From Liolophura sinensis (lineage: Eukaryota; Mollusca; Polyplacophora; Chitonida; Chitonidae): DNA of 64,000 bases. The notes beneath the pieces were generated by a model. That model was given only the letters and a program-made list of their open reading frames with translations, was not told the origin of the DNA and ran no database searches. Positions 4,701 to 62,700 of this stretch are shown piece after piece. Location of the stretch: the NCBI RefSeq assembly GCF_032854445.1, contig NC_088302.1:5077338-5141337 (forward strand), in the 5' to 3' direction. Each line of letters starts with the position of its first letter. Position 1 is the first letter of the stretch. The translations under genes were made by a program, and so were the position numbers.

Positions 4701-5336
4701 TATGTTACAGTCTCCACAGGTGCGGTCCTTTGCTGGGCAGGTGAATGTTTGTGGATAGGGGCCACCGCAAAAATAACACTCCTTGTCGCTGGACCTGTTG
4801 ATCATCAGATTTGGTTTTGATCCCGGATGACGTGTTTGTTCCAGAATTATTTATTGTTTATGTGATTTTCAGCTTTTTGATCTTCATTGTTTTGCGCTCA
4901 AGTTTCAGATATTTCTACAGTTCTTTCCGCATTCAAAAAATCAGTCAGTGTCCAATCTGCTTCACGAAGTGCTCTGCGTCGGATTCTGTTTGATAAACAC
5001 GTTTGTATGATCTGTCTTGATTTGCTTGTCAGTGGACTGTAATTCACAGGTGGCTGCTAACTGACAGTCTCATCTGGAAAGTATCTATTCGCTTGCCTGG
5101 TTGTTGGGAAGCTTGTCCGAACTTGTGAATTCCACATTTCTAAATGGTGTGAAGTATTTTGTGAGCGCGTCGACAGCTTTATTGATGTACAAAGCGTCAC
5201 CAGTGTATGCCACCATGTCGAATATGTCACACAACTAGTCACCATCATAAAGCAGATAAACTGCTCCTTTACGTTCATCGCCCTTCCCGTCTAAAGCTAC
5301 GACAGGGTTGTTGACATAAGCAGTCTGGGTTGCCAT
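4701..5336 (-). pseudogene. Ty3/gypsy-type Gag remnant (capsid and zinc knuckles)
   Basis: On the minus strand a Gag-like reading starts at an ATG at 5,336-5,334 (MATQTAYVNNPVVALDGK). It continues through VYLLYDGD, a stop, then DIFDMVAYTGDALYINKAVD, ALTKYFTPFRNVEF and a stretch ending in a TLTDFLNAERTVEISE-like reading near 4,920 (one frame change). Near 4,790-4,710 it reads ECYFCGGPYPQTFTCPAKDR followed by TCGDC, which is one knuckle plus the first half of a second. The other half of that second knuckle is on the far side of the Tc1-like insertion. The copy is broken by stops and frameshifts. No long terminal repeat was recognised between 5,337 and 5,577, a stretch in which I see nothing else. 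Confidence 0.75.
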
Positions 5337-5577: not shown

Positions 5578-5812
5578 TTTTATTTATTTGATTGGTGTTT
5601 TACGCCGTACTCAATATTTCACATACACGACGGCGGCCAGCATTATGGTGCGAGGAAACCCGGCTGGAAAAAACGACCATCCGCAAGCTGCTGAAAGACC
5701 TTCCCACACAAGGCCAGACAGCAAGCCAGCATGAGCTGGGCTTGAACTCACAGCGACCGCACTGGTGAGAGGCTCCCGGATCATTGCGTCATGCTAGCTC
5801 CCTCGGCCCCTA
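5578..5812 (-). mobile_element. SINE family 1 copy (tRNA-headed), minus strand
   Basis: Carries the family's diagnostic blocks in reverse order: tail TTTATTTATTTGATTGGTG, then TTTTACGCCGTACTCAA, then ACGACGGCGGCCAGCATTAT, then the head with GCTTGAACTCACAGCGACC. The family has a tRNA-like head with a B-box form of GAGTTCAAGTCC, a conserved GC-rich body and an A-rich (AAAT)n tail, and shows target-site duplications elsewhere in the window. The head end is worn here. Confidence 0.85.
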
Positions 5813-7160
5813 ATAGCTTTTGCGCACCTGCATCGGAGTAAACAAAACTTCGACAAACCAGTTCCTACTGGTCGCTTCTGCTCTATACGGGTCGTCACAC
5901 ACAACACTTCAGGTCATTGACTGCGCCGGGTTATCTTTCAAATACATATACCGTAAACGACTTAGAAATTTCGTCCATGCACGACTCATACAGGTTTTCG
6001 CTGTTTTTAATTATCAGCGCTCTATTAATCGTATACAAGTACTTTGAAGTCTGTTAGGAAAGTACGATCACGTCTTCCAGGCAAAAGCCAAGTTTCAGCA
6101 GAAAAGTGATTTTTTATGATACTTGCCTTTGAAAACGGCACTGTCCTAGACACCTTAGCGATTAATCATATTAGACACAGTTGTGGGTGCCTGCTCTCCA
6201 CAACGGTCCTGCGTATATAGACCTGTGATCTAGTCCCAGTGGAACGCCTAACCAACAGATTTGCGCATTGAACCGAAACGTAAACATCGCTATTCTACCA
6301 CTCCAATTCACCGTTAAAACTTTTTGACGTTTTATTATGTTCACATGGTTTACTGTTTCACAATCACCAAGGACTGGGTCATATATGGCATATATCAATC
6401 CCTTCAGGGAACGTTACATTCGTAACGTGATGCCTGGTCAGTGTCACCTACAAATGCGCGCCCCAATAGCTGAACACGAATACACTGTGGTATACTCGTC
6501 ACGTGGCCTATCATTATGTTACAGCGCGTGAAGGTATGTCAGGACTGGGTTATCCACTAGGCTATACTTGAAACGCACCACAAAAATTTGCATTAAAAAT
6601 AGAGGAAAATACCCCAAAACTGGGGGGAGGGACACTCCAGGTTCAGAATTATGCTCTGTATGCCTGAACATTACACTCTAGCTTGGAACGCAGAGATGAA
6701 CTTGAATTACAACATATAAAGTTTATAAGATATACTAGTCGGCAGGAACCTTTACATTTTCCCAAGTGCTACTCACTCCCAACATTTAACCTACTACAAT
6801 GTTCTGTTTCAACCGTAACACTTCGTACCATCATTACGTTTCATTCGAAATAACGCTGAGATTAATATTCGCGAATCTATCTCATTACACAACGCTTCCG
6901 AATATAAAAAACCTTTTTTCTGTGGCATCATCAGGTCTTATTTCCACCTCTTAACAACACAGATTTCACCAGCTCCAACCAACCAACAAAAGGAAAAAGA
7001 AAATAATGTGTTTTCGCGTAGTCGTTATCTACATCACTTGTGGTGTCAAGTCCCTTCTCTTCTGCCACGAATCACCAGCAGTCCATGAGCTGCACAGAAC
7101 ATACACTTCACAATAATCTAACACAACACACACATATGTATTACTCAAGGTCATATTAAA
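5813..7160. other. No gene recognised
   Basis: Short open frames up to about 75 codons occur on both strands, but none has a recognisable motif or a plausible codon pattern. There is no clear repeat. The region lies between the transposon graveyard and the inferred 3' end of the Bcl-2-family gene, and is treated as intergenic. Confidence 0.5.
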
Positions 7161-12735: not shown

Positions 12736-13451
12736 CACACTTAGTCATGCGCACTTAGCCTCTCCCTCCCCATCTCCACCCTTCCTTTGATGAGTCGATC
12801 CGCACATCACTGCCAAGTGACGAAATAGCGGACGGAATAGATGTAATAATGCATGGATTGTTCAAATACATATGCGTTAGTGTAAGCATACAGGAATGCT
12901 TATATCTGTAAGTTCTGTCTTATATTGTATTCATCGTGTTGTTAGGCCTATACAGACGAATAGGCCGCGACTCGTTATGGGCTAGAAAGAACACCAAACA
13001 GGCTATATGTGATTAATCAAAGTTCTATATAGGCTATTTGACCAGATAATTATTAATAGTCATAATGATGTCACATGGTACAGAATAATACGGCGTATCT
13101 ATTTATGTATAGGTGGGTGCCATGCAGGGCTAGTCTCAGCTGAGGGTATAGTTATACACGTACTGCTGAAACCACATGTCCATGACCTACGTGTTTGTTG
13201 TATAGGCTACTTGGAGCGACCATAGACCTACATGTACATACGCCCTAATGGGCTGCTTAGCTATATAGGCTTTGTATATACTGGTATATGTAATTCATAC
13301 ACCTTAACATTTCTCTTGTATCGGTCACATGGTATCATATAGCCTACACCGAACGGACTCCAGTCTGTCTCTATATGGCAATCCGCTGCATATTGTTACA
13401 TGCTCATGAGTCTGTTGCATACTAGAATGACTGAGGACTACATGAGCCCCA
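12736..13451. other. No gene recognised
   Basis: AT-rich sequence. Its last 75 bases (about 13,378-13,451) resemble a stretch at 14,860-14,905 (CAATCCGC-GCATAT, then TGTTACATG), so this flank of the 48-bp array has been duplicated. Confidence 0.45.
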
Positions 13452-13835
13452 ATTGCATGTGGGAAACCATACTGGAATAGCTCAGGCCTATATATGCACA
13501 TATTGCATGTGGGAAACCATACTGGAATGGCTGACGTCTGTATGCCCGTATTCCAGCTGGGAAACCATATTGGGATAGCTGAGGCCTATATGTGCACATA
13601 TTGTATGTGTGAAACCGTACTGGAATGGCTGAGGCCTATATGCCCGCATTTCATGTGGGAAACCATACAGGAATGGCTGAGGCCTATATGCCCGTATTTC
13701 ATGTAGGAAACCATACTGGAATGGCTGAGGCCTATATGCCCGCATTTCATGTGGGAAACCATACTGATCGGCTGAGGCCTATATGCCCGTATTTCATGTG
13801 GGAAACCATACTGGAATGACTGAGGCCTATATGTA
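13452..13835 (+). repeat. Tandem repeat, about 48-bp unit, about 8 copies
   Basis: Head-to-tail copies of a unit whose core is TGTGGGAAACCATACTGGAA then TGGCTGAGGCCTATATG. Starts of the core fall near 13,458, 13,507, 13,556, 13,607, 13,655, 13,703, 13,751 and 13,797, so the spacing is 46-51 bp. The later copies are the most alike. Open frames across it arise because 48 is a multiple of 3; there is no sign of a real protein. Confidence 0.9.
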
Positions 13836-19314: not shown

Positions 19315-20216
19315 TACATGTGCCTTATTGACGTATAGACGCCATTTATAACCTGGTATACGGACGTCATATTAATATATACCTGCCACACATACAAGCG
19401 CCATATTAATATACAAACGCCACTTACAGAGACCATACTGATATATAGATGCCACATATAACCTGGTATATAGGTGCCATATTGTGATATAAATATAGAC
19501 GCTTCTTATAATCTGGTTTACATACGCCATATTTTTGATATATAGACGTCACTAATAACCTGGTATACAGGTGCCATCTTGATATGTAGATGCCACGTAT
19601 AAGCTGGTATAAAGATGCCATATAGATACGTAGACGCCCCTTATAACCTGATATACAGACACCATATTGATACATAGACGCCACTTATAATCTGGTATAT
19701 AGGTGCCATATTCTTATATAAATATAGACGCTTGTTATAACCTGGTAAACAGACGCCATATTGATATATAGACGTCACTTATAGCCTTTTATACAAGTGC
19801 CATATTGATATATAGACGCCACTTACAACCCAGTATACAGGCGCCATATTGATACATTGACGCCACTTATAATCTGGTATAGAGATGCCATATAGATTTA
19901 TAGGCGCCACTTATAACCTGGTATACAGGCATCGTATTGATACATAGACGCCACTTATAATCTGGTATAGAGATGCCATATAGATACATAGACGCCACTT
20001 ATAACCTGGTATACAGGAATCATATTGATACATAGACGCCACTTATAACTTGGTATACTGGCACCATATTGATATATAAACCACACTTATAACCTGGTAT
20101 ACAGATGCCATATAGGTACATAGACGCCACTTATAACCTGGTTTACAGGTGCCATATTGATATATAGACGTCACTTATAACTTGGCATACTGGCGCCATG
20201 TTGACATATAGACGCC

Positions 20217-24945: not shown

Positions 24946-25235
24946 TAAATCTTTTGGTGGTGGCAGTGATTCAAAGCGAGCTTAAAGAGCGGCATGTAAG
25001 TTGTAAGGGGCAGTTCTAATAGTATACGTATCTGATACACCACCTAACATAAAGACCACAAAAGTATTAATTAAAAACACCCACTGACTGTTATTCTCAA
25101 GGTTACATTTAACCCGGTATTTTACAGACCAGAAACACGTGTATCAAATAACAATTGCTTTTATCTTTGTTAGAAATCATCACTTACTATCTGTCAAAAA
25201 AGATTCTGTGGCGTTCTTTGGCCGTAAAACAGCTA
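24946..25235. other. Unique-looking flank of the satellite
   Basis: Noncoding spacer. Satellite-like sequence (CACCAGCACATACCAGGAAG) begins just after 25,236. Confidence 0.5.
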
Positions 25236-28200
25236 ACTGTGGTCATTCACAAATACACCAGCACATACCAGGAAGGGTTTATCGGAAGTGACCAATGGCA
25301 GTCGGTTTAATATGGTCAAGTGCCCTTCCTAAGGATTGGTCAAACATCGTTCGGTGCCCTTACAAGCATCTGATAGTGCTAATTTTACAGAATACACCAG
25401 CACATGTCAAATACCAGGAAGGGCTTTATCACACATGGCCAATGGCAGTCGATTAGCCTTTCCTAGCATCTGATAGTGCTAATTTTAAAGAATTATTTAC
25501 AGAATACACCGGCACTTATCAAATACCAGAGAGAAGTTGATCGGTCAGAAGAAATGATCGCTCAGTGCGCTTACCAGCATCTGATAGTGCTCATTTAGAG
25601 AACACACCAGCACATATCAAATACAACGAATGGTTTATTGGAAGTGGTCGATGGCTGACGGTCAAGTAAGCTTTAATGCCTTCCTAGCATGTATAAGTGC
25701 TAATATCCAATATCATGTAGACTTTATTAAGAAATGGTCACTGCCTGTCGTGCATCTGATAGTGCCAATTCAAAGAAAAAACAAGCACATATCAAATGCC
25801 GGGAAAAGTGTTTTTGAAAATGGTACCTGGCTGTAGTCTAAACATCATTCGGTACCCTTACCTGCATCTGATAGTGCTAATTTACAGAACACAAAAGCAC
25901 ATATCAAATACCTGGAAGAGGTTTATAGGGAGTTGTGTATGGTTGTTGGTAAATACCAGGAAGTGTTTGTCACGTTTAAATTTTTACCGCCTTTTATAGA
26001 TAAATTTTGTCGATATCATACCCTGACTCGCGGACAAATTTGATTTGGTGCGCTTCCTATCATCTGATAGTGCTAATTTTACAGAATACGCCATCAAAAA
26101 TCATTTACCAGGAACTGTTTTATTGGAAGTGGTCACTGGTTAAAGGCTAAGGGCGGTTTGATGCCCAAACCAGCATCTGATAGTTCTAATTTTACAGAAT
26201 ACACTAGCGCATATCAATTTCCAGAAAGTGTTTGTCGTAAGTGGTCACTGTGTGACGCTCAAATATGACTAGGGGCCCTTAACAGCATCTGATAGTGGCT
26301 AATTTTACTGAATACACATGCATATATCAAATACTAGGATAGGCTATATCTGTCGTCGCCGCAAGCTGAAAGTTAAATGTGGTTCGGTATACTTCCTAAC
26401 GTCCGATAGTGATAATTTTGCAGAATACATCAGCATATATCAAATGCCAGGAAGAGTGTTTTAAGAAATGGTCATGGCCTGTCGTCCAAACATCTTTCGG
26501 TGCCCTTATTACCATCTGATAGTGCTAATTTACAGAGCACACCCACACATACCAAATGCCAGAAAGGACATTATAGGGAGCGGTAAATGGCAGTAAATGG
26601 CTGTTGAATAACAGGTGAGGTTTCGCCACGTTTAGATTGTTACGGCATCATACCAGCACATATCAGATACCTAGGGTGGGGGTGGGGAGTTCGGTGCACT
26701 TCCCACCATCTGAAAGTGCTAATTTTGTTGAATACGCCTGCATACATCAAATACCAGGAAGGGTTTATCGCAAGTGGTCACTGAGTGACGGTCAAATATG
26801 ATTAGATGTTCTTCCTACCATCTTATAGTGCTAATTTACAGAATATATCAGCACATATCAAATACCAGAAAGGGTGTTTTAGGAAATGGCCACTGATTGT
26901 TGTCCAATATCGTTTGGCGCCCTTACCAGCATCTAATAGTGCTAATTTACAGAATACACCAGCACATACCAAATACCTGGAAAGGCTTTATAGGTAGTGG
27001 TCAATGGCAAGTTAGTAAATACCAAGAAATGTTTCGTCACGTTAAGGTTCTTACCGCATTTTACTCATAATTCTGCCGTTTCCATACCCTTCTAAGCATC
27101 TAGTAGTCCTAATTTTAAAGAACACACAGGCGCGGTAGACGCGGTAGGCGCGGTCCAAAATGGACGCTATCAGCCACCATACTTCCTAGCATCTGACAGA
27201 ATACACCAGCACATATCGGATACCAGGAAGGGATTTGTCGGAAGTGGTCACTGGCTCACAATCAAGTATGGTTTGGTGCCCTTATTAGCACGTGAAAGTG
27301 CTATTTTACAAAACACACCTGCACATATCAAATGGAAGAGTGTTATAACAAATGGTCACTGGCTATCGTCCAAACATCGGTCGGTGCCCTTACCGGCATC
27401 TGATAGTGCTAACTTACGGAACACACCAGCACATATCAAATGCCAGAGAGGTCGGGCGGTGGGGAAGGGGGGGGGGGGCTTGTTTTAAGAAGTGGTCGTG
27501 TGACTGTCAAACATCGTTCGGTGCACTTACCAGCATCTAAAAGTGCGACTTTTGCGAAAAGCACCGGTACATGTCAAATACATGGAAGGGTTTATCGAAA
27601 GTGTCAATTGTGTCACAGTCAAATATAATTAGATGGTCCTCCTAGCGTCTGTTAGTGCTAATTTACAGAATACATCGGCACACATCAGATACGAGGAAGG
27701 GATTCGTCGGAAGTGGTCACTGGCTGACGATCAAGTATGGTTTGGTGCCCTTCCTAGCGTGGTAAAGTGCCAATTTACAAACCACATCACCACATATCAA
27801 ATATCAGGAAGGCTGTTATAAGAAAGGGCTACTGGCTCTCGTCCAAATATTGTTCGGTGCCCTTACCAGCATCTAATAATGCTAATTTACAGAAAACAAC
27901 AGCACATATCAAATACCAAGGAGGGCAGGGGGGAGCGGGGGTGCGTTAAGAAGTGGTCACCGTCTGAAGGTCACACATCGTTTGGTGCCCTTACCAGCAT
28001 TTGATAGTGCTCATTTTGCTAAATTCACTGGCACATATCAAAGAACAGGAAGGATTTTTCGGGAGTGGTCAGTGTGTGATAATCAAATATATTTTGACGT
28101 CTCTCCTAGCATCAGTTAACGCTAATTTACAAAATATACCAGTAGATATCAAATACCAGGAAGAGTGTTTCCACGAATGGGTCACTTTCTGACGATCAAA

Positions 28201-30150
28201 CATCGATCCGTACCCTCAACAGAGTTTTAAAGAGCACATATGAAATACTAGGAAGGGCTTTATTACAAAAGCCCACTGGCTGACGGTCAAATATAATTTG
28301 GTGCCCTTCCTAGCGTCTGATAGTGTTAATTTTACAGAACAGACCAGCACATATCATATACCAGGAAGTGATTCGTCGGAAGTGGTAACTGGCTGACGAT
28401 CAAGTATGGTTTGGTGCCTTTCCTAGCATGTGAAAGTGCCAATTTACAGACCACACCACCACACATCAAATATCAGGAAGAGTGTTATAAGAAATGACCA
28501 CTGGCTGTCGCCCAAATATTGCTTGATTCCCTTACCAGCATTTGATAGTGCTAATTTACAGAACACACCACCACATATCATATACCAGGAAGGGATTCGT
28601 CGAAAGTGGTCACTGGCGGACGTACTAGTATCGTTTGGTGCCCGTCCTAGCATCTGATAGTGCTAATTTACAGAATCCAGCAGCACATATCATATACCAG
28701 GATGGGATTCGTCGGATGTGTTCACTGGCTGAGAATCAAGTATGATTTTGTGGCCTTCCTAGCATCTGATAGTGCTAATTTTACAGTATACACAAGCACA
28801 TATCATATACCAGGAAGGGATTCGCCGAAAGTTGTCGCTGGCTGGCGTTCAAGTATCGTTTGGTGCCCTTCCTAGTATCTGATAGTGATAATTTTACATA
28901 ATACAGCAGCACATATCATACACCAGGAAGGGATTCGTCAAAAGTGGTTACTGGCTGACGTTTAAGCATGGCTTGGTGCCCTTCCTAGCATCCTATAGTG
29001 CTAATATACAGAGTACACCAGCACATATTTTATACCAGGAAGGGAATCGTCGAAAGTGGTAACGGGCTGACGATTAAGCATGGTTTGGTGCCTTTCCTAC
29101 CACATTAAAGTGCCAATTTACAGACAACACCACCATATATCTAATATCAAAAAATATCAGAGTTTTAAAACAAATTGTTACTGGCTGACGGTCCAATATT
29201 GTTTGGTGCCCTTCCTAACATTTGATAGTGCTAGTTTTATAGAGTACGCCAGCACAAATTAAATACTGCGAAAGGCTTTATCGGAAGTGGTAACACTTTC
29301 ACGGTTAAGTATTGTCTTGCACCCTTCCTAGCATCTAATAGTGCTAATTTTACAGCATACATCAGCACATATCATATACCAGGATGGGATTCGTCGAAAG
29401 TGGTCACTGGCTAACGATAAAATTTGGTTTAGTGCCATTCCTAGAAATTATTAGTGCTTTATCATAAGTGGTAACACTTTCACGGTAGGGTATTGTCTTG
29501 CGCCCTTCCTAGCATCTAATAGTGCTAATTTTACAGCATACACCAGCACATGTCAAGTACCAGGATGGGATTCGTCAAAAGTGGTCACTGGCTAACGATG
29601 AAATATAGTTTAGTGCCATTCCTAGAAATTAATAGTGCTTTATCGGAAGTGGTAACACTTTCACGGTTAGGTATTGTCTTACGCCCTTCCTAGCATCTAA
29701 TAGTGCTAATTTTACAGCATGCACCAGCACATATCAAATACCAGAAAAGCCTTTATCGGAAGTGGAAACTGTTTTGGTAACTGATTAAGTATTGTTTGGC
29801 GCCCTTCCTAGCATCTGATAGTGCTAATTTTACAGAATACACCAGTGTATATAAAATATCAGGTAAAGTGTCTTATAAGAAATGGTCACAGGCTGTCGTC
29901 CAAACATCGTTTGCTGCCTTTCCCAGAAACTGATAGTGTTAAATTAAAAAACACGCCGGCACATATCAAATATCAGGAAGAGTGTAGTAAGAAAATGTCT
30001 CTGGCTATCGTCCAAACATCGCTCGGTTCCGTTACCAGCATATGATAGTGCGAATTTTTCTAAAAACACCAGTACATATCAAATACCAGGAAGGGTTTAT
30101 CACAAGTGATCACTGTGTGACAGTCATACATGATTAATTGGACCTCCTAG
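25236..30150 (+). repeat. Left edge of the satellite: diverged, irregular monomers
   Basis: Spacing of the GCATCTGATAGTGC word varies (about 75-195 bp, with losses and part-monomers). Sequences differ strongly between neighbours, and no repeated multi-monomer order is visible up to about 30 kb. Several monomers have G-rich insertions (about 26,670-26,690, 27,448-27,480 and 27,920-27,945). A short GCGGTAGACGCGGTAGGCGC stretch sits near 27,135. Confidence 0.85.
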
Positions 30151-33100
30151 CGTCTGTTAGTGCTTATTTACGGAATACACCAGCACATATCAAAAACCAG
30201 GAATGGTGTTTTTACCAAGAGGGATCCTCCTGATGGTCAAACATTGGCCCGTGCTCTCACCAGAGTCTTATACGATGAATTTTACCAAATAGACAAGCAC
30301 ATATTTAAAACCAGGAAAGGCTTTATCCCACGTGACCACTGGCTGACGGTCAAATATTGTTTGTTGTCCTTCCTAGCATTTGATAGTGCTAGTTTTATAG
30401 AATACACCAGCACAAATTCAATACTAGGAAAGGCTTTATGGGAAGTGGTAACTGCTTGACGGTCAAGTATCATCAGGCGCCCTTTCTAGCTTCTGATAGT
30501 GCTAATTTTACAGTATACAAAAGCACATATCATAAACCAGGAAGGGATTCGTCCAACGTGATCACTGGTTGACAATCAAGTATGTTCTGGTGCCCTTACT
30601 AGCATCTGATGGTGCTAATCTACACACAGAATATACCAGCACATATTATATACCAGGAAGGGGTTCGTCGGAAGTGGTCACTGGCTGACGATTAAGCATG
30701 GTTTGGTGCCTTTTCTACCATATGAAAGTGCCAATTTACTGACCACACCACCACATATCAAATATCAGGAAGAGTGTTATAAGAAATGGCTATTGGCTGT
30801 AGTCAAACATATTGTTTGGTGGCCTTACCAGCATTTAATAGTGCTAATTTACAGAATACACCAGCACATATTAAACACCAGGAAGGGTGTTTTTACCAAG
30901 TGGTCACCTTCTGATGGTCAAACATTGGCCCGTGCCCTTACCAGAGCCTTATAGAATAAATTTTACAGAATACATAAGCACGTAAAAAAACCCAGGAATG
31001 GCTTTACCACACGTGACCACTGGCTGACGGTTAAATACTGGCTGGTGCCCTTCCTAGCATGTTGTGCAATTTTTATAGAATACACTAGCACAAAATAAAT
31101 GCTAGGAAAGGTTTTATAGAAAGTGGTAACTATTTCACGGTTAAGTATTGTCTTGCGCCCTTCCTCGCATCTGATAGTGCTAATTTTACAGTATACACCA
31201 GCACATATCATATACCAGGAAAGGATTCGTCAGAAGTGGTCACTGGCTGACGATTACGTATGGTTTTGTGCCCTCCCTAGCATCTGATAGTGCTAATTTT
31301 ACAGTATATTCGAGCACGTATTATATACCAGGAAGGGGTTTGTCGGAAGTGGTCACTGGCTGACGGTCAAGTAAGGTTTGGTGCCCTTCCTAGCATCTGA
31401 TAGTGCTAATTGACAGTATACACCAGCACATATCATATACCAGGAAGGGATTCGTCAAACGTGGTCGCTGGCTGACGATCAAGTGTGGTTTGGTGCCCTT
31501 CCTTGCATCTGATGGTGCTAATTTAAAGAATACACCAGCACATATTATATACCAGGAAGGGGTTTGTCGGAAGTGGTAACTGGCTGACGATCAAGTAAGG
31601 TTTGGTGCCCTTCCTAGCATCTGAAAGTGCTAATTGACAGTATACACCAGCACATATCATATACCAGGAAGGAATTCGTCGGAAGTGGTCACTGGCTGAC
31701 GATTAAGCATGGTTTGGTGCCTTTTCTACCATATGAAAGTGCCAATTTACAGACCACACCACCACATATCAAATATCAGGAAGAGTGTTATAAGAATTGG
31801 CTATTGGCTGTAGTCGAAATATTGTTTGGTGCCCTTACCAGCATTTGATAGTGCTAATTTACAGAAATACACCAGCACATATTAAATACCAGGAAGGGCG
31901 TTTTTACCAAGTGGTCACCTTCTCATGGTCAAATATTGGCCCGTGCTCTCACCAGAGTCTTATAGAATGAAGTTTACCAAATAGACGAGCACATATTTAA
32001 AACCAGGAAAAGCTTCATCCCAAGTGACCACTGGCTGAAGATCTAACATTGTTTGTTGTCCTTCCTAGCATTTGATAGTGCTAGTTTTATAAAATGCCCC
32101 AGCACAAAATAAATGCTAGAGAAAGCTTTGTAGGAAGTGGTAACTGTCTGACGGTCAAGTATCATTTGCCGCCCTTCCTAGCATCTGATAGTGCTAATTT
32201 TACAGTATATACCAGCACATATAATATACCAGGAAGGGATTCGTCCAACGTGGTCACTGGCTGACGATCAAGTATGGTTTGGTGCCTTTCCTTGCATCTG
32301 ATGGTGCTAATTTACAGAACACACCAGCACATATTATATACCAGGAAGGGGTTTGTCGGAAGTGGTAACTGGCTGACGATCAAGTAAGGTTTGGTGCCCT
32401 TCCTAGCATCTAATAGTGCTAATTGACAGTATACACCAGCACATATCATATACCAGGAAGGAATTCGTCGGAAGTGGTCACTGGCTGACGATTAAGCATG
32501 GTTTGGTGCCTTTTCTACCATGTGAAAGTGCCAATTTACAGACCACAACACCACATATCAAATATCAGGAAGAGTGTTATAAGAAATGGCTACTGGCTGT
32601 AGTCGAAATATTGTTTGGTGCCCTTACCAGCATTTGATAGTGCTAATTTACAGAATACACCAGCACATATTAAATACCAGGAAGGGTGTTTTTACCAAGT
32701 GGTCACCTTCTGATGGTCAAACATTGACCCGTGCTCTCACCAGAGTCTTATAGAATGAACTTTACAGAATACATAAGCACGTATTTAAAACCAGGAAGGG
32801 CTTTATTACACGTGACCACTGGCTGACGGTTAAATATTGTCTGTTGCCCTTCCTAGCATTTGATAGTGCTAGTTTTATAGAATACACCAGCACAAAATAA
32901 ATGCTAGGTAAGGCTTTATTTTAAGGTGGTAACTATTTCACGGTTAAGTATTGTCTTGCGCCCTTCCTAGCATCTGATAGTGCTAATTTACAAAATCTAC
33001 CAGCACAAATCATATAACAGGAAAGGTTTTATCGGAAGTGGTAACTGATTAAGTATTGTCTGGCGCCCTTCTTAGCATCTTATAGTGGTAATTTTACAGA

Positions 33101-36100
33101 ATACACCAGCACATATAAACTATTAGGGTAAATGTCGTATATGAAATGGTCACTGGCTGTCGACCAAAAATCGTTTGGTGCCCTTCCCATTATCTAATAG
33201 TATTAATTCAAAAAAACACACCAGCACATATCAAATATCAGGAAGAGTGTAGTAATAAATTGTCTCTGGCTATCGTCCAAACATCGCTCGGTTACCTTAC
33301 CAGCATATAATAGTGCGAATTTTGCTAAAAACACCGGTACATATCAAATACAAGGAAGGGTTTATCACAAGTTATCACTGTGTGACAGTCAAATATGATT
33401 AATGGGCCCTCCTAGCGTCTGTTTGTGCTTACTTACAGAATACACCAGCACATATAAAAAAACAGGAATGGTGTTTTTACCAAGTGGTCGCCTCCTGATG
33501 GTCAAACATTGGCCCGTGCTCTCACCAGAGTCTTATACAATGAATTTTAGCAAATAGACAAAAACATATTTGAAAGCAGGAAAGGCTTCATGCCACGTGA
33601 CAACTGGCTGAAGATCTAACATTGTTTGTTGTCCTTCCTAGCATTTGACAGTGCTAGTTTTATAAAATACACCAGCACAAAATCAATGCTAGAGAAAGCT
33701 TTATAGGAAGTGGTAACTGCCTGACGGTCAAGTTTCATTTGCCGCCCTTTCTAGCATCTGATAGTGCTAATTTTACACTATACACCAGCACATATCATAT
33801 ACCAGAAAGGGATTTGTCAAACGTGGTCACTGGCTGACGATCAAGTATGGTTTGGTGCCCTTCCTTGCATCTGATGGTGCTAATTTACAGAACACACCAG
33901 CACATATTATATACCAGGAAGGGGTTTGTCGGAAGTGGTAACTGGCTGACGATCAAGTAAGGTTTGGTGCCCTTCCTAGCATCTAATAGTGCTAATTGAC
34001 AGTATATTCGAGCACGTATTATATACCAGGAAGGGGTTTGTCGGAAGTGGTCACTGGCTGACATTCAAGTAAGGTTTGGTGCCCTTCCTAGCATCTGATG
34101 GTGCTAATTTAAAGAATACACCAGCACAGATTATATAACAGGAAGGGGTTTGTCGGAAGTGGTAACTGGCTGACGATCAAGTAAGGTTTGGTGCCCTTCC
34201 TAGCATCTGATAGTGCTAATTTAAAGAATACACCAGCACATATCATATACCAGGAAGGGATTCGTCGGAAGTGGTCACTGGCTGACAATTAAGCATGGTT
34301 TGGTGCCTTTTCTACCATATGAAAGTGCCAATTTACAGACCACAACACCACATATCAAATATCAGGAAGAGTGTTATAAGAAATGGCTATTGGCTGTAGT
34401 CAAACATATTATTTGGTGGCCTTACCAGCATTTAATAGTGCTAATTTACAGAATACACCAGCACATATTAAACACCAGGAAGGGTGTTTTTACCAAGTGG
34501 TCACCTTCTGATGGTCAAACATTGGCCCGTGCCCTTACCAGAGTCTTATAGAATAAATTTTACAGAATACATAAGCACGTAAAAAAACCCAGGAATGGCT
34601 TTACCACACGTGACCACTGGCTGACGGTTAAATACTGGCTGGTGCCCTTCCTAGCATGTTGTGCAATTTTTATAGAATACACTAGCACAAAATAAATGCT
34701 AGGAAAGGCTTTATAGAAAGTGGTAACTATTTCACGGTTAAGTATTGTCTTGCGCCCTTCCTCGCATCTGATAGTGCTAATTTTACACTATACACCAGCA
34801 CATATCATATACCAGGAAAGGATTCGTCAGAAGTGGTCACTGGCTGACGATTACGTATGGTTTTGTGCCCTCCCTAGCATCTGATAGGGCTAATTTTACA
34901 GTATATTCGAACACGTATTATATACCAGGAAGGGGTTTGTCGGAAGTGGTCACTGGCTGACATTCAAGTAAGGTTTGGTGCCCTTCCTAGCATCTGATAG
35001 TGCTAATTGACAGTATACACCAGCACATATCATATACCAGGAAGGGATTCGTCAAACGTGGTCGCTGGCTGACGATCAAGTGTGGTTTGGTGCCCTTCCT
35101 TGCATCTGATGGTGCTAATTTAAAGAATACACCAGGAAGGGGTTTGTCGGAAGTGGTAACTGGCTGACGATCAAGTAAGGTTTGGTGCCCTTCCTAGCAT
35201 CTGATAGTGCTAATTGACAGTATACACCAGCACATATCATATACCAGGAAGGGATTCGTCGGAAGTGGTCACTGGCTGACGATTAAGCATGGTTTGGTGC
35301 CTTTTCTACCATATGAAAGTGCCAATTTACAGACCACACCACCACATATCAAATATCAGGAAGAGTGTTATAAGAATTGGCTATTGGCTGTAGTCGAAAT
35401 ATTGTTTGGTGCCCTTACCAGCATTTGATAGTGCTAATTTACAGAAATACACCAGCACATATTAAATACCAGGAAGGGTGTTTTTACCAAGTGGTCACCT
35501 TCTCATGGTCAAATATTGGCCCGTGCTCTCACCAGAGTCTTATAGAATGAATTTTACCAAATAGACGAGCACATATTTAAAACCAGGAAAAGCTTCATCC
35601 CAAGTGACCACTGGCTGAAGATCTAACATTGTTTGTTGTCCTTCCTAGCATTTGATAGTGCTAGTTTTATAAAATGCCCCAGCACAAAATAAATGCTAGA
35701 GAAAGCTTTGTAGGAAGTGGTAACTGTCTGACGGTCAAGTATCATTTGCCGCCCTTCCTAGCATCTGATAGTGCTAATTTTACAGTATATACCAGCACAT
35801 ATAATATACCAGGAAGGGATTCGTCCAACGTGGTCACTGGCTGACGATCAAGTATGGTTTGGTGCCTTTCCTTGCATCTGATGGTGCTAATTTACAGAAC
35901 ACACCAGCACATATTATATACCAGGAAGGGGTTCGTCGGAAGTGGTCACTGGCTGACGATTAAGCATGGTTTGGTGCCTTTTCTACCATATGAAAGTGCC
36001 AATTTACAGACCACAACACCACATATCAAATATCAGGAAGAGTGTTATAAGAAATGGCTACTGGCTGTAGTCGAAATATTGTTTGGTGCCCTTACCAGCA

Positions 36101-50160: not shown

Positions 50161-53100
50161 TTCGATACACTAGATTTTGAATGCCACATACTTACGTGTT
50201 TGGAAGACGCATTGATTTCGCATGCTGCAAAGCAATGGTTTAGTTCAGAGATTGACGAGGAAGGTCAAATCTCTATCGAAATCTACCTGAAATCCTGTAC
50301 TTCAAATTATTCTAAAATAAAAGTTTCCACCGTTTTTTTTTAGGCAATCAATTATCTTGTGTTTTTTTAAATCATTGGCAACACTGAATTATTTGTGAGA
50401 ACGCGTTATTAAACATTGTAGTCTGGTATACTTGTATATTATGACTGTTAACATGCTGAAGACAATCCCAGTAAAACGATCATCGTAAAGGTCATCAGAC
50501 AAAACATGCTATAACATGGTACCAAAATCATTATATGTTTATGCCTGATGTACTTTACTACACAAATGATACAAACAATATTATATAGCTACAGTCTGTT
50601 CTGACTGTTAAATCTAATAGTTATGTTTCTACTTTGCTTACCTTTCAAGTGGATTTTGGTACCTTGCCCGTTGTCTTAGATATATATCATATTGGCCATT
50701 TTGTTTGCGTGCTATCCCTTAGCTGTTGCTACAATTAGTTTGGAATCTCGGTGTTTCCCATGAAGTGTGGAGACAGCCACATGGTCTTTGAAGTGAGCAA
50801 TGCAACTTTGCAGTCAGCTAGAGTGGCTTTTATAGATGCACACAGCTGTCATCTCGAAGTTAAAGGCGTCTACAGCTTGGGTACTGTATTGGGTTGTTTT
50901 TTCTACTTGTTGAATCTCAGGATTAATCACAGCGGTGTCATTTGACAACCCACGGGACATTTCCTACCTGGCTACCCACGGAGATATGGGGGTGGGAGGG
51001 GATCGGAAGTTGAGTGGTCTATGAGGCCGACGTTACTCCGCAGGACACACCATAACCTGAGTCAATCTCATCATATTTCCAGGGCTGGTGTGAGCCAACT
51101 GACCAAGAAGAGAAAGCTGTCACATTTGATATGCCCATTTACTTTGTCCTTTAAGTTTTCGTTTTCATTTATTTCATTTACACTGGGTGCCCAACAAAAT
51201 ATCAGTTCAGGAATAAAAGATATTAATTTTAGATAGGCATGACACCTTTTGTAGGTTTCTGGTGCGATTTATGATTTTTTTGGGATATATAAGATCATAT
51301 TTGTGCTTTAATTGAGAATATATCATTTGAAAGCAAAAACAAAATATTTTCATACTTTAGCTTACAGTTGTGCTTTATTTCAATGGTGACGAAGAGTATA
51401 ATAAACCAGTTTTATTCTCTTTACCTGGAAGAAAATAGTTCTTTAAGTATGTTAATTGTACTTATCTCATTTTCACCGGTTTTATTAAACAATTTGATGA
51501 GAGAAGCCTAGTTACGCTAATGTATCCGTTACATAAATGTTACTGTTTGTATGGCGTTCCATCGAAACAGAATTATAAATACCAAGCCATTTGAACCAGC
51601 CTTTTTGAAAGATTTCTTTCAGATGTGAGCAAAGCACCCGCTGAATCGTTTATCCAGATTGGAAGAAAATGAAAAGCTTTAATGGTGGAAATTGTAAATA
51701 TTGTGCTATTGTTTTCTGTCTTCTTTGGTTGGTATCTTTAATATTTTATTGATACACTGTGTTCTTAAATTTTAAAGGCGCCTTTCTCACTCTTGAGTAA
51801 TACCTAATACTTTCATCGCGGTGCATTCTGAGAATGTACATACGGCTGTACTGGAAGCCTATGTGTATATAATGTTAAGCTTATTAAATATTAGCATACA
51901 TTCGGCAAATGTATGGAGAGTGATATAATGGTGACATTAAAATCTACGTATAAATCGATGGAATGTACGTCAAGTTGCGTAACTGGAAATATATACGACG
52001 ACTGTTGTGGATTTATCATCGTCACATTATTACACCGAATGGTCTTAGTTCTGCACACTCTGTCTAGGATTCAACCTGTCTACAAACTATATTTATGTTT
52101 GTGGATTTCTAAATACAATTACACTAAGCTTAATCTTTTTATGTGCCACTAATCCAGTACTCTAATCCGCACGCGAGACAACAGATTTGGACTTATCAAG
52201 CTGTCTGACAGCTTCTTACTTAAGGATTATCAACAGCACCTGTCGCTTGGACGCTGGGTGGGGGTTGTTTCCGGGAGCGGGGTGTGGGCAGAAATGTTTG
52301 TCTTGTTTCAGACGTATAGTGTCGATTCACAGCGGCCTCACAAGCTATTAGAACTGTCGTGTAATGATGGTATAGCACTCATCTGACTTTTCACTATACA
52401 CATTCGTATCCACAACACAGATAAGTTAGCAACATGACCGTAGTACACGGGTGATACAGATCTTTATCTTAGTGGATGACTGGCTTTTTCAGTTCTGTCA
52501 TCGCATAACTTCAGTTTGCAGATCAAGTTGTAACTACATTAGTTGAGCCTTTAACATTTAATTCATCGAACAATTTCAATCAGTTTTTATAACGTGCAAA
52601 GGTACGCAATTGTTAAGCAAATTCCTTCATATATGCCATATTTTAACTTTATCCCTTGTATTTTGGTACATACTGGTTCGTTTCGAAATTCAGCACTATG
52701 TCAGGGAGTAATTAGACATGGTATTTGGTATGTTCTTGTAGATTCAGCAATCGGATACAAGTCAAATTTTAACGGAAAGCTCTTCCTGGTAGCAATCAAA
52801 GCTTCTCTTTGTATGATTTCGTCCTTTTTCCGTACTTTCTATATTTTCTTAGTTTCTTCGGTCATTTGTGTTATACGTCTTTTTGGGAACTGACCTTACG
52901 ATTATTGACCTGGAATGTCGTTATTGGTTGACGGCTGTTATATGAATGTCTGTGTCGACGCATAGATGATATGTACTAACATATTCTGTAAATTTAGCAC
53001 TATCATAACCAAATAGTAATAACCAGATCTCGACTGAAACATATTTAGCAAGACTGGAGACCATACCTGATAAAATTGGTTTTATTATTCAATGTAGACA

Positions 53101-53689: not shown

Positions 53690-54035
53690 TTACATCAAGA
53701 TCAAGGCACGACATCTAAAAAGCTCCAACGAAGCGGCGCATCAGATGAACACCAAAGCACTATCTCTAATGAACGCAAAAACATTTCATGAATTGCAAAA
53801 CACTACTTCTAATGAATGTTAAAACACTATATCAAGCCAAAAGCACTGTATCTAATGAACTCCATTTCAGCAGTACATCGAACGAACTTTAAAGCACAAC
53901 ATCTAATGATCGCCAAAGCATTTCATGAAACCCAAAGCGCTAAATCTAATGATCGCCAAAGCATTTCATGAAACCCAAAGCACTACATCTAATGATCGCA
54001 AAAGCATTTCATGAAACCCAAAGCACTATACATCC
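53690..54035 (+). repeat. Tandem repeat, about 43-bp unit
   Basis: Three neat copies at about 53,895-54,030 of CATCTAATGATCGCCAAAGC followed by ATTTCATGAAACCCAAAGC and a CACTA join. Upstream to about 53,690 are more worn copies (CTCTAATGAACGCAAAAAC, CTTCTAATGAATG). No protein is predicted. Confidence 0.8.
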
Positions 54036-59700: not shown

Positions 59701-62700
59701 CTGCGATTCACTGATTCCTGCCCAGTGACGTCGTGTATGTGTTCGTATCAAACTGTTGCCAACTTTGCACGGAATTTATTTCGCGAATCAGTTCCCGTAC
59801 ACTTCTCTCATCCTATCATTGAATAATTCAGCTATATATTCCACATACCACAATAAAACCGATCAGTGCAATAATAATAATAAAAAATACAAATAAACTC
59901 CACAACTGGCAACTGTTTGTGAAGTACTCCTCAAGGCGGGATGTAAGTTGTGTGAGGGAAGGCATCATACATCCCCGTACAATTATCACGAAAGGCAGTG
60001 AATGTGGCGAATTCTTGAATGTGGCGGTGATTAACAATCAAAAAAAATAAATAAATAAATAAACAGAGGAACAGGGCAATGCTGAATGTTGTATAAGTAC
60101 ACTATTCTTGAGTACGGTGTAAAACTTCTGTCAAATAAATAAATAAGTAAAACAACGCTAAATTTCGCCATTTTTGCACTCCGTTTAAAATTTCAGTCAA
60201 ATAAATACAAAAAACAATGTTAAATTTCTCCATTTTTGCAATGATGTGTTTGTTTTTCTTTGTGAATGGCAAAAGTATGTCACAGTTGTTCGGTTATCAT
60301 AATGCAGATGTTCTTTCCACGTAAAATAGGTTTTTCCTGATCTGTTACAGCAGTAGAAAAGCTTCAGGGTAAATTCTTGATATATACGTCCTGAAGTGCT
60401 AAAATTGTACATCCACATGTTCTGTAGCTATTTTGTGTCTCTGTTCCTCCTACATCCAGGTTGATGATTACAAACCATGGCTGACCATTCCACCTGAAAA
60501 TAATAACGGGAATACAGATGAAATCCTCAGCCACAACGATAAGCTGCGGCTCAACTTGGAAGGTGAAAACCAGGAAGACAGGGTAAGGCATCAGAGTTAT
60601 CTTCCCTTGAATCAGCTGAGCGTGTTACACACAAACCAAGGTTGCTGAAGCGGCCAACTGAGATTATCTGTCGTCTCCATCACTTTTGTTTCTGAGGGTT
60701 TTTAATATATTTCCACACGGCACTACTGATTCTCAAGCAACGTTTATGTATAATATATTTTTTGTTGGCCACAGAGGAGTTTTGAAACTCAAACCAGGTG
60801 ATTTCTTCTCTGCGTGGATTGTCTCATTATCGTGACTTATTTTCTCAGATCAAATAAACTGACTTTTAGGACTTACACTCCCACATCAAACATGCTTTTT
60901 TCTCTCTTCCTTTGTCAATGAAGAAGGATGATGACGAAGAACGGGAAAAGAGGAAATACTTGTATCCAAAAGGATCATCGAATCTTTGGCCACAGGGGAT
61001 TATTTTGTACAGGTTTGCCACGGATCAGAGAAGATTCGGTGAGTCGAATTCTCAACAATTAAATTGGCTAGTTAAACAGATTAGACAAAAATTTGTTTGG
61101 AAAAAAGAGAAACATCCACCTTTAGAGTACTCTATGAAAAAGTACGTCTTGTTTAACAAAATAATGATATGAAACAGCTAAAAAAGTTGAAACTTGCGTC
61201 GCCAAGATACCTAAACACCACAAACTGTCTTTGATTTCCAGACAACCAAGAAAGCTATGATGTCGTCAAGGCAGCCATGCGGTGGTACGAAGAGAACAGC
61301 TGTATAAAATGGCGAGAGGCGACCTCGCAGATGGAAAATTTCGTGGAGATTGGAAAAGGCGTCGGGTAAGGCTTTTTCACGTGACACCTAATTCAGTGGT
61401 ATACGGTTTTCAGATCCAGGGCCTATTTTCCATGGCGGATGTATAATTAGGACAACAAGAAATTAATTTCTTAATTTTACATCAGTTTGGCAATTTTACC
61501 GCAAATTTGTAATTTTCAATGTAATATGCGAACAATTTCTGCTCTCTTTCCACTGTGAAGACCATCAAACCATTCTGCCTGTTCGCATTTGAAAATATCC
61601 TTACCCACATACACCAAGTGTAAACATACAATATGAATCTACCAAATTAGCTGTATTTCATTTAAGAACTAAAATGTCTTCATCCACATTGTTGTGTTTA
61701 CAGTTGCAGCGCCAACATTGGGAGAAGCGTGCAGAAGAGCATCATGACATTGGAAGAACCTAGATGTCTCACGGTAAATAAGAATATCACTTGAAAAGCT
61801 TTGTTTAAAGGCTTAACCAACACCGTGGTCGTTGGTGGAGTGGATACGATAATACAGTAGTATAGGTTGCCGAACGGTGTCCAAGATGGGACGTCGTGAA
61901 CAAAGAACATCTTATGTCATGAGTAGTGTACATGTACACATGTGTGCTCGTGATTGTTTTCGTTCATGACACTGTCTCATGAACATGGTCATGTTTAGGC
62001 TTCCATCATGAACACGCCGACGATGACTATAGCTGGCATTGTATCGTGTAATAAAGCAACGTTCTTGTTCTCAAGCTCACGACAGTTTCGCACGAAGTAT
62101 GCCACTGTTTAGGCTTCAATCACGAATCAGTAATAAACGAAATGTTTCTGTTAATCGGTTCACCACTGCTCTGCACGAAAAGGGCCATTGTTTGGGCATC
62201 CATCACGACCATGTCCGCAATGACTAGCTATGCAGCAGTAATGAAGGCAATGTTTCTGTTTTTCAGTTCACGACTGTTTTGCACGAAATGGGCCATTGTT
62301 TGGGCTTCCATCACGAACACGTCCGTAGTGACCGTGACAAGTACGTTGATGTGATTTACAGCCGACTTCAGGAGAAACCCGGGGGTACCAACTGGGGCAA
62401 GTCGAATACCATAAACTACGCCCCCTACGACCTGGGATCCACTATGCACTACAGCCTATACGTGAGTAAAACATTATTTGGAGCCTTAAACACCCAGACC
62501 AGGGTAGCCGGGCAATGTGTAACTGCTCCAAGGAGAATCCATGTTTACGACCAATAGTGATAGAGACTTAGACGGAACGACCCCATCCAGTGACCACCAT
62601 CAATCTCCTTCACTGACGTCACATAAAAGGACCATGGTCATAAAGGTGACATATTGCGGAGACGCCTACGGCATTACACACCAATAAAATACTAAATGGA

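Follow-up and report, generated by a model that had tools for sequence, protein, structure and literature searches.

Does the satellite at this locus in the chiton Liolophura sinensis carry a hairpin that is maintained by selection as RNA, or does it repeat an inverted sequence that spread together with the array? The question arises from an earlier note on a stretch of 64,000 nucleotides (C8:5,077,338-5,141,337, the window hereafter) in this 609-Mb genome of 632 contigs, which had read in each satellite monomer a hairpin whose variants keep the two arms matched. The assembly was first published under Liolophura japonica and the species was later corrected to L. sinensis, according to the available sections of the two papers (PMC11068029; PMC12441733). 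The C8 satellite is best explained as one member of a family of tandem arrays, spread over several loci, that share a stem-loop formed on one strand. Selection for RNA structure of some kind is, in our judgement, probable; this combines the chance that a minus-strand RNA hairpin is selected, most likely as a small-RNA precursor (miRNA- or hpRNA-like), which from the sequence we rate as about even, with that of another structural role for the RNA, which is unlikely. The alternatives weighed below overlap, as a transposon origin is compatible with a small-RNA role, and their probabilities need not sum to one.

TRF and nhmmer find the long head-to-tail arrays with higher-order repeats that characterize a satellite, on C8 as well as in the other arrays described below. 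The C8 array has a period of 112 (TRF), its monomers are spaced 112-113 bp apart in 153 of 218 intervals, and it runs in a single orientation throughout, all 217 hits of a two-strand nhmmer search with one seed being on the plus strand. With up to three mismatches allowed, the 17-nt core TAGCACTATCAGATGCT matches 158 times in the window, against 0.16 expected from shuffles. Over the 219 monomers the core is intact in 38, carries zero to two mismatches in 140, and at least three in 79.

Features of the C8 satellite array and its hairpins, in window coordinates (scores are from the covariance model unless stated otherwise).
Feature	Position	Strand	Description
Satellite array C8	25,231-50,156	+	219 head-to-tail monomers of about 112 bp, some partial; nhmmer, 219 top-strand hits
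Left margin of the array	25,231-28,230	+	Monomers more divergent, spacing irregular; mostly lower nhmmer scores
Hairpin singled out by the earlier note	31,046-31,115	-	Left arm TTGTGC, right arm ATGCTAGG; 62.3 bits, the monomer itself being among those that built the model
Example of the ATGCTAG right-arm type	32,057-32,129	-	69.6 bits; the type comprises 21 of 219 monomers
One of the two top-scoring hairpins of the array	34,192-34,263	-	98.7 bits (an overlapping stretch was in the model)
Conserved 17-nt core TAGCACTATCAGATGCT	34,202-34,218	-	Candidate guide, on the 3' arm of the hairpin read from the minus strand
Copy of the TTGTGC variant hairpin	34,643-34,712	-	Within a segment duplicated at +3,597 bp; 61.5 bits
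Solitary degenerate hairpin remnant	52,964-53,007	-	Opposite orientation, 2.8 kb beyond the array; from letters and fold; weak nhmmer hit (E 1.3e-4; model input mixed both strands)

The window also holds other tandem arrays, at 13,418-13,833 (period 48), 19,433-20,216 (44) and 53,745-54,028 (43), as well as smaller ones. On the minus strand, an open frame at 8,841-9,467 matches the Bcl-2 family (Pfam PF00452, 8e-16) and one at 189-749 matches RNase H (PF00075, 4.5e-10), the latter by its resemblance presumably part of a non-LTR retrotransposon. A repeated stretch at 62,055-62,557 (+) has translations in which HExxHCLGFxHE-like motifs can be seen by eye, motifs that we take to resemble those of astacin peptidases; at an E-value of 0.001 Pfam gave no match for 62,100-62,340. 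Elsewhere in the assembly, contig C99 carries COX1 every 15.5 kb or so, seven times, a pattern that head-to-tail assembly of mitochondrial genomes would produce. Translated with the invertebrate mitochondrial code, the gene stays open.

The typical monomer had been described as a pair of inverted repeats in which several mismatches become G-U pairs in a minus-strand RNA, and folding bears this out. The minus-strand consensus of the C8 array forms 27 pairs with a 1-nt bulge at -40.9 kcal/mol, a near-perfect inverted repeat. Twenty-two of these pairs are Watson-Crick, all five others are G-U and none is A-C, and on the plus strand the same five are A-C mismatches. Among individual monomers the minus strand folds better than the plus in 214 of 219, with a mean of -22.0 kcal/mol, compared with -14.4 for the plus strand, -13.4 for dinucleotide-shuffled minus strands, and a baseline of about -11.5 for 200 72-mers drawn at random from the rest of the window. 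The comparison with dinucleotide shuffles of the minus strand, a control of the kind that the earlier note had named, places the fold beyond chance on average; with 20 shuffles per monomer, z lies below -2 in 132 of 219 and does not in the other 87. The monomer first singled out (31,046-31,117) folds at -25.7 kcal/mol on the minus strand (z -5.97) and at -22.5 on the plus (z -4.14), while one of the two top-scoring hairpins, at 34,192, reaches -36.5 (z -7.25, with none of 200 shuffles as good) and -23.7 (z -4.87), respectively.

Matched changes in both arms had been taken as a sign of selection or of templated correction. Both variants do exist: the right arm ATGCTAG occurs in 21 of 219 C8 monomers, and the left arm TTGTGC is found at 31,046 and 34,643 and in seven other C8 monomers. 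As evidence of selection, they carry less than was supposed. The monomers at 31,046 and 34,643 belong to a single segmental duplication, 99.3% identical along 450 bp at an offset of 3,597, so that the TTGTGC change at these places counts as one event, and their folds (-25.7 and -29.5) fall inside the range of -20.6 to -33.7 spanned by the 19 other monomers that share this right arm. The ATGCTAG type has changed in one arm only, which turns two G-U pairs into Watson-Crick pairs, and the gaps between its 21 copies measure 763-807 bp in 15 of 20 cases, a regularity that makes these copies look like one higher-order-repeat lineage. A single arm-to-arm correction behind this type is possible.

Nor did covariation inside the arrays exceed that of the shuffled controls. 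The set consisted of 64 non-redundant hairpins from C8 and the related array on C1 (62 of 69 non-redundant ones, seven being dropped by hand, plus two typical ones), and 500 shuffles were made. Paired cells amounted to 79.5% versus 79.2% in the shuffles (112/500 as high), pairs changed on both sides numbered 6 versus 12.0 (500/500 as high), the covariation score was 0.145 versus 0.147 (311/500 as high), and RNAalifold found no consensus pair across the 64 hairpins. With no excess over the shuffles, no consensus pair and one duplicated event, we reject matched arm changes within the array as evidence of selection. There is a weak G-U bias among recent within-array changes: in non-redundant monomers, single-step departures from Watson-Crick pairing gave 128 G-U versus 106 A-C on C8 and 41 versus 25 on C1, and among changed pair states present in at least ten C8 monomers three are G-U and none is A-C. 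Counting distinct rows only (188 for C8, 123 for C1 and 88 for C7, a third array), the core is the least diverse region on C1 (0.115, spacer 0.194) and on C7 (0.110, spacer 0.150), and on C8 core (0.237), partner arm (0.251) and loop (0.228) are about equal and all below the spacer (0.335). Selection on each copy at present, if any, acts weakly.

These results would also fit a hairpin with no present function, an ancestral hairpin having been spread by unequal exchange and conversion so that the similarity among arrays reflects common origin. The absence of covariation inside arrays, the many degraded copies (at least three core mismatches in 79 of 219 C8 monomers) and a G-U bias that is only weak in recent changes all speak for this explanation. 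Common origin alone, however, does not explain why loops differ at 60% of sites and spacers show no detectable similarity while the core differs at 4.5%, although the conservation of the core was itself raised by the way in which some arrays were found, and we consider this account unlikely.

The evidence for the contrast comes from elsewhere in the genome, where C1, C7, C13 and the unplaced C345 carry arrays of this hairpin whose spacers are unrelated and whose loops have diverged. When one C8 monomer was used as query, the DNA search matched C1, among the matches listed in the hairpin part only (query 3-78). The C1 array comprises 121 monomers of 112 bp with a spacer that differs from that of C8, a count that leaves out ten scattered hits located below position 5,300 in the joined C1 pieces; on the minus strand the 112-nt consensus folds into this hairpin (-39.4 kcal/mol) and on the plus into another structure, and the isolated plus-strand stretch gives only a broken hairpin (-15.6 kcal/mol). 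The C7 array, with a period of 108, was found through a core pattern, and the C13 and C345 arrays through a C7 query and a second core pattern. C345 has the same unit as C13, 793 bp long on C13 and carrying four different hairpins (13a-13d), which lies at 8.22-8.30 Mb and 22.43-22.45 Mb among the matches listed; in a DNA search with hairpin 13a the best 40 of 294 candidates were all on C13. Genome-wide, the pattern AGCATCTGATAGTGCTAATTT occurs with up to three mismatches at 1,152 places (425 forward, 727 reverse), whereas the reversed control gives 6; those placed individually comprise 151 in the window, 115 in the C1 piece, 58 in C7, 40 in C13, 37 in C345 and 1 in C9. The minus fold beats the plus in 119 of 121 hairpins on C1, 87 of 88 on C7, 40 of 40 on C13 and 41 of 41 on C345, hits above 15 bits being used (88 of 90 on C7, 40 of 41 on C13 and 41 of 41 on C345). 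In a two-strand check, opposite-strand hits in the C1, C7, C13 and C345 pieces only overlap better forward hits. Beyond the C1 array lie two weak opposite-strand hits, at 5,783-5,834 and 5,950-5,999 of the joined pieces.

The C9 match is a single hairpin (C9:24,597,698-24,597,765) beside a TA repeat. Its flanks, compared by eye, match the 793-bp unit of C13, and we reject it as an independent ancestor on this ground; judging by its letters, it is a transplanted piece of the C13 array.

That a module of 67-72 bp stands in contexts unrelated to one another, with four occurrences in the 793-bp unit, might suggest a short foldback or MITE-like transposon that was inserted several times and then tandemly amplified, with the arms as its terminal inverted repeats. 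Terminal inverted repeats are indeed present, the arms making up nearly the whole module, and degenerate copies flank the arrays. The flanks do not favor such an origin: for all four C13 hairpins the longest word shared by the two sides is 2-4 nt (flanks of 12-16 bp, placed by eye), which leaves room for short target-site duplications. Each array keeps one orientation, all DNA-search matches among those listed lie in or beside tandem arrays, and the C9 copy shares the flanks of the C13 unit. Moreover, strand-symmetric decay of a transposon predicts equal numbers of G-U and A-C, a prediction at odds with the pair counts given below. We therefore regard this origin as quite improbable. Among the roles that had been proposed for the hairpin, descent from a foldback transposon is thus weakened by flanks, orientation and array-bound matches, and the small-RNA precursor fits best.

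To compare the arrays with one another, we used seven hairpin types (C8, C1, C7 and C13a-d), represented by consensus letters or by one real monomer per type. Minus and plus folds of the consensuses are -40.3/-23.7, -39.4/-15.6, -41.1/-22.8 and -30.4/-26.2 kcal/mol for the first four and -31.6/-15.5, -32.3/-24.3 and -28.4/-8.3 for the last three, and RNAalifold gives -35.1 kcal/mol for the seven together on the minus strand versus -16.5 on the plus. Standard pairs make up 92.6% of the minus-strand cells versus 78.3% on the plus. The 189 pair cells on the minus strand comprise 146 Watson-Crick, 29 G-U, 2 A-C and 12 other; counted by distinct positions, which allows for shared descent, the asymmetry is weaker, at 9 G-U versus 2 A-C. 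Between the types, unlike within the arrays, changes on both sides of a pair exceed the shuffles: five pairs in the consensuses (C-G to U-A twice, C-G to G-C, and G-C to A-U twice) versus 1.8 shuffled, and covariation of 0.175 versus 0.126, values that one shuffle in 500 reached in each case. With a single real monomer for each type, the test gave four pairs versus 1.5 (10/500 as high) and 0.160 versus 0.121 (12/500), and all these shuffle counts, coming from seven related sequences, are not probabilities. The plus-strand version is also above shuffles (78.3% versus 75.9% standard pairs, 2/500; five pairs, 6/500), which double changes should bring about on either strand, though it pairs many fewer cells; the double-change test thus speaks for pairing, not for the strand.

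Divergence between types is 16/357 (4.5%, or 0.045) in the core, 73/357 (20%, 0.204) in its 5' partners and 140/232 (60%, 0.603) in the loop, and an arm-swap permutation of core against partners over the seven types gives P 0.016. Ascertainment favors a conserved core in C7 (found by core pattern) and in 13b and 13c (C7 query and core pattern); among types found otherwise or by linkage (C8, C1, 13a and 13d), which leave these patterns aside, the core stands at 6/102 and the partners at 21/102, with P 0.061. The order of core, partner and loop, which corresponds to the ranking of mature arm, star arm and loop in a microRNA family, is absent inside C8. None of ten pairs of spacer consensuses aligns better than shuffles at the 5% level (lowest 0.097). 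A conserved core and pairing across arrays with diverged loops and spacers, together with both-side changes above shuffles, support selection for RNA structure. In the stem below the core, by contrast, it is the 3' side that varies more (45/168, versus 22/168 on the 5' side). Across C8, C1, C7 and C13a-d conservation is thus offset, with the 3'-arm core and the basal 5' arm kept and their partners varying more, and both arms could have constrained 5' ends.

A core that alone is nearly invariant among arrays with unrelated spacers could also be a site bound as double-stranded DNA. The CENP-B box is kept in centromeric satellites, and the 17-bp core might likewise be a protein-binding site in unrelated satellites, with the second arm a half-decayed inverted copy; a small dyad, TAGCA..TGCTA, is visible within the core. 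Such a site does not, however, predict a paired second arm, changes on both sides of a pair, or the preference for G-U over A-C (29 versus 2 cells; 9 versus 2 positions), and the arrays are dispersed, with two sites on C13. We find this interpretation quite unlikely.

If the favored reading of a small-RNA precursor holds, the array would be transcribed from its minus strand, and the transcript would, according to the computed folds, form a row of 27-bp hairpins. A Dicer-type enzyme would then free a small RNA from the 3' arm, its 5' end probably near UAGCACUAUCAGAUGCU, where conservation begins; of all the steps, this processing is the least secure. Selection would act on the copies collectively and not one by one, keeping the core and the pairing of the partner arm, while loop and spacer would drift. 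MicroRNA hairpins pair at least 16 nucleotides between the arms and have 8 nt or more in the loop, and the chiton hairpin has 27 pairs on C8 and a loop of 12 columns in the consensus alignment of the seven types. The stem of a canonical pri-miRNA is about 35 bp; the 27 pairs on C8 are not extended in the 112-nt consensuses of C8 and C1, and stems of the other types are similar or shorter, and for this reason we do not claim membership among the microRNAs. Counted on the C8 consensus, a 22-nt duplex starting at the conserved U leaves about five pairs below it, fewer than in a canonical pri-miRNA, which makes a Dicer-only, hpRNA-like route more likely than one through Drosha. Besides the short stem, a guide on the 3' arm alone does not predict the more variable 3' side below the core.

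The same observations bear on the possibility that selection favors the RNA structure of the minus-strand hairpin in some capacity other than that of a small-RNA precursor, the hairpin being bound by a double-strand-RNA protein or acting as a processing or localisation element. The strand asymmetry and the pairing between types apply equally to such a structure, and a stem below canonical pri-miRNA length agrees with it. The loop, which is the usual protein contact, is nevertheless the most diverged part of the hairpin, and one arm keeps its letters, although paired changes should accumulate in both arms if structure were all that mattered. We accordingly judge this role unlikely, as stated above.

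In the window Rfam gave no match at gathering scores. Weak matches to mir-144 (19.9 bits versus 60, on the other strand) and TarB, from 34,150-34,420 (271 bases), are taken as chance, and a self-cleaving ribozyme is rejected, there being no Rfam match and no conserved loop. The start of the predicted product, UAGCAC, resembles, as we take it, that of the miR-29/285 family. A target gene of an hpRNA would carry extended complementarity to an arm; the pattern GCATCTGATAGTGCTANV occurs at 1 place, inside the array of the window. It includes a letter that follows the core in none of the seven types, and sites followed by T or mismatched are indistinguishable from the arrays.

Several known systems share parts of this organisation. 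In C19MC and mir-430, many paralogous hairpins share an orientation, keep one arm and vary in the loop, as in the chiton arrays, but the chiton stem is shorter and its spacing is satellite-like. Mosquito tapiR shows that a satellite may be the source of a selected small RNA, although there the product is a satellite-derived piRNA and not that of a stem-loop. The nearest described system appears to be the hp-CG4068 cluster of Drosophila, a tandem hpRNA cluster with 20 copies in D. melanogaster and 9 in D. simulans which, in the available part of the report, yields Dcr-2-dependent siRNAs with mus308 as a named target (PMC10317233). As far as that part describes it, the cluster resembles the chiton arrays in its tandem hairpins and rapid change in copy number, and differs in that its product and target are named, whereas the chiton small RNA is only predicted. 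The chiton copies, moreover, number 219 on C8 and 121 on C1, in several arrays with unrelated spacers. The mir-548 family, derived from MADE1 MITEs with 37-bp inverted repeats 6 bp apart, likewise shows, in the sections available, a short near-palindromic repeat giving rise to a stable hairpin with many potential human paralogues; the chiton copies differ in lying in tandem arrays and in G-U pairs that favor one strand (PMC1784062). Among the papers listed, we found no account of such arrays in titles or abstract openings, and no literature match to the letters of the core. For Liolophura itself, the available text of the assembly paper mentions small RNA isolated from five tissues and describes polyA-selected sequencing only (PMC11068029).

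Taken further, though tentatively, the thousand or so satellite hairpins on at least four chromosomes may together constitute one distributed source of a small RNA, in which only the guide arm and its pairing partner would be selected. Satellite turnover, through unequal exchange and homogenisation, would supply the copy number, possibly in conflict with a target that evolves quickly. Satellite DNA is commonly regarded as unconstrained; here, arrays without spacer similarity keep one strand-specific stem-loop. If the product is confirmed, the unit selected in a satellite would be an RNA, and array growth and homogenisation would be mechanisms of gene dosage.
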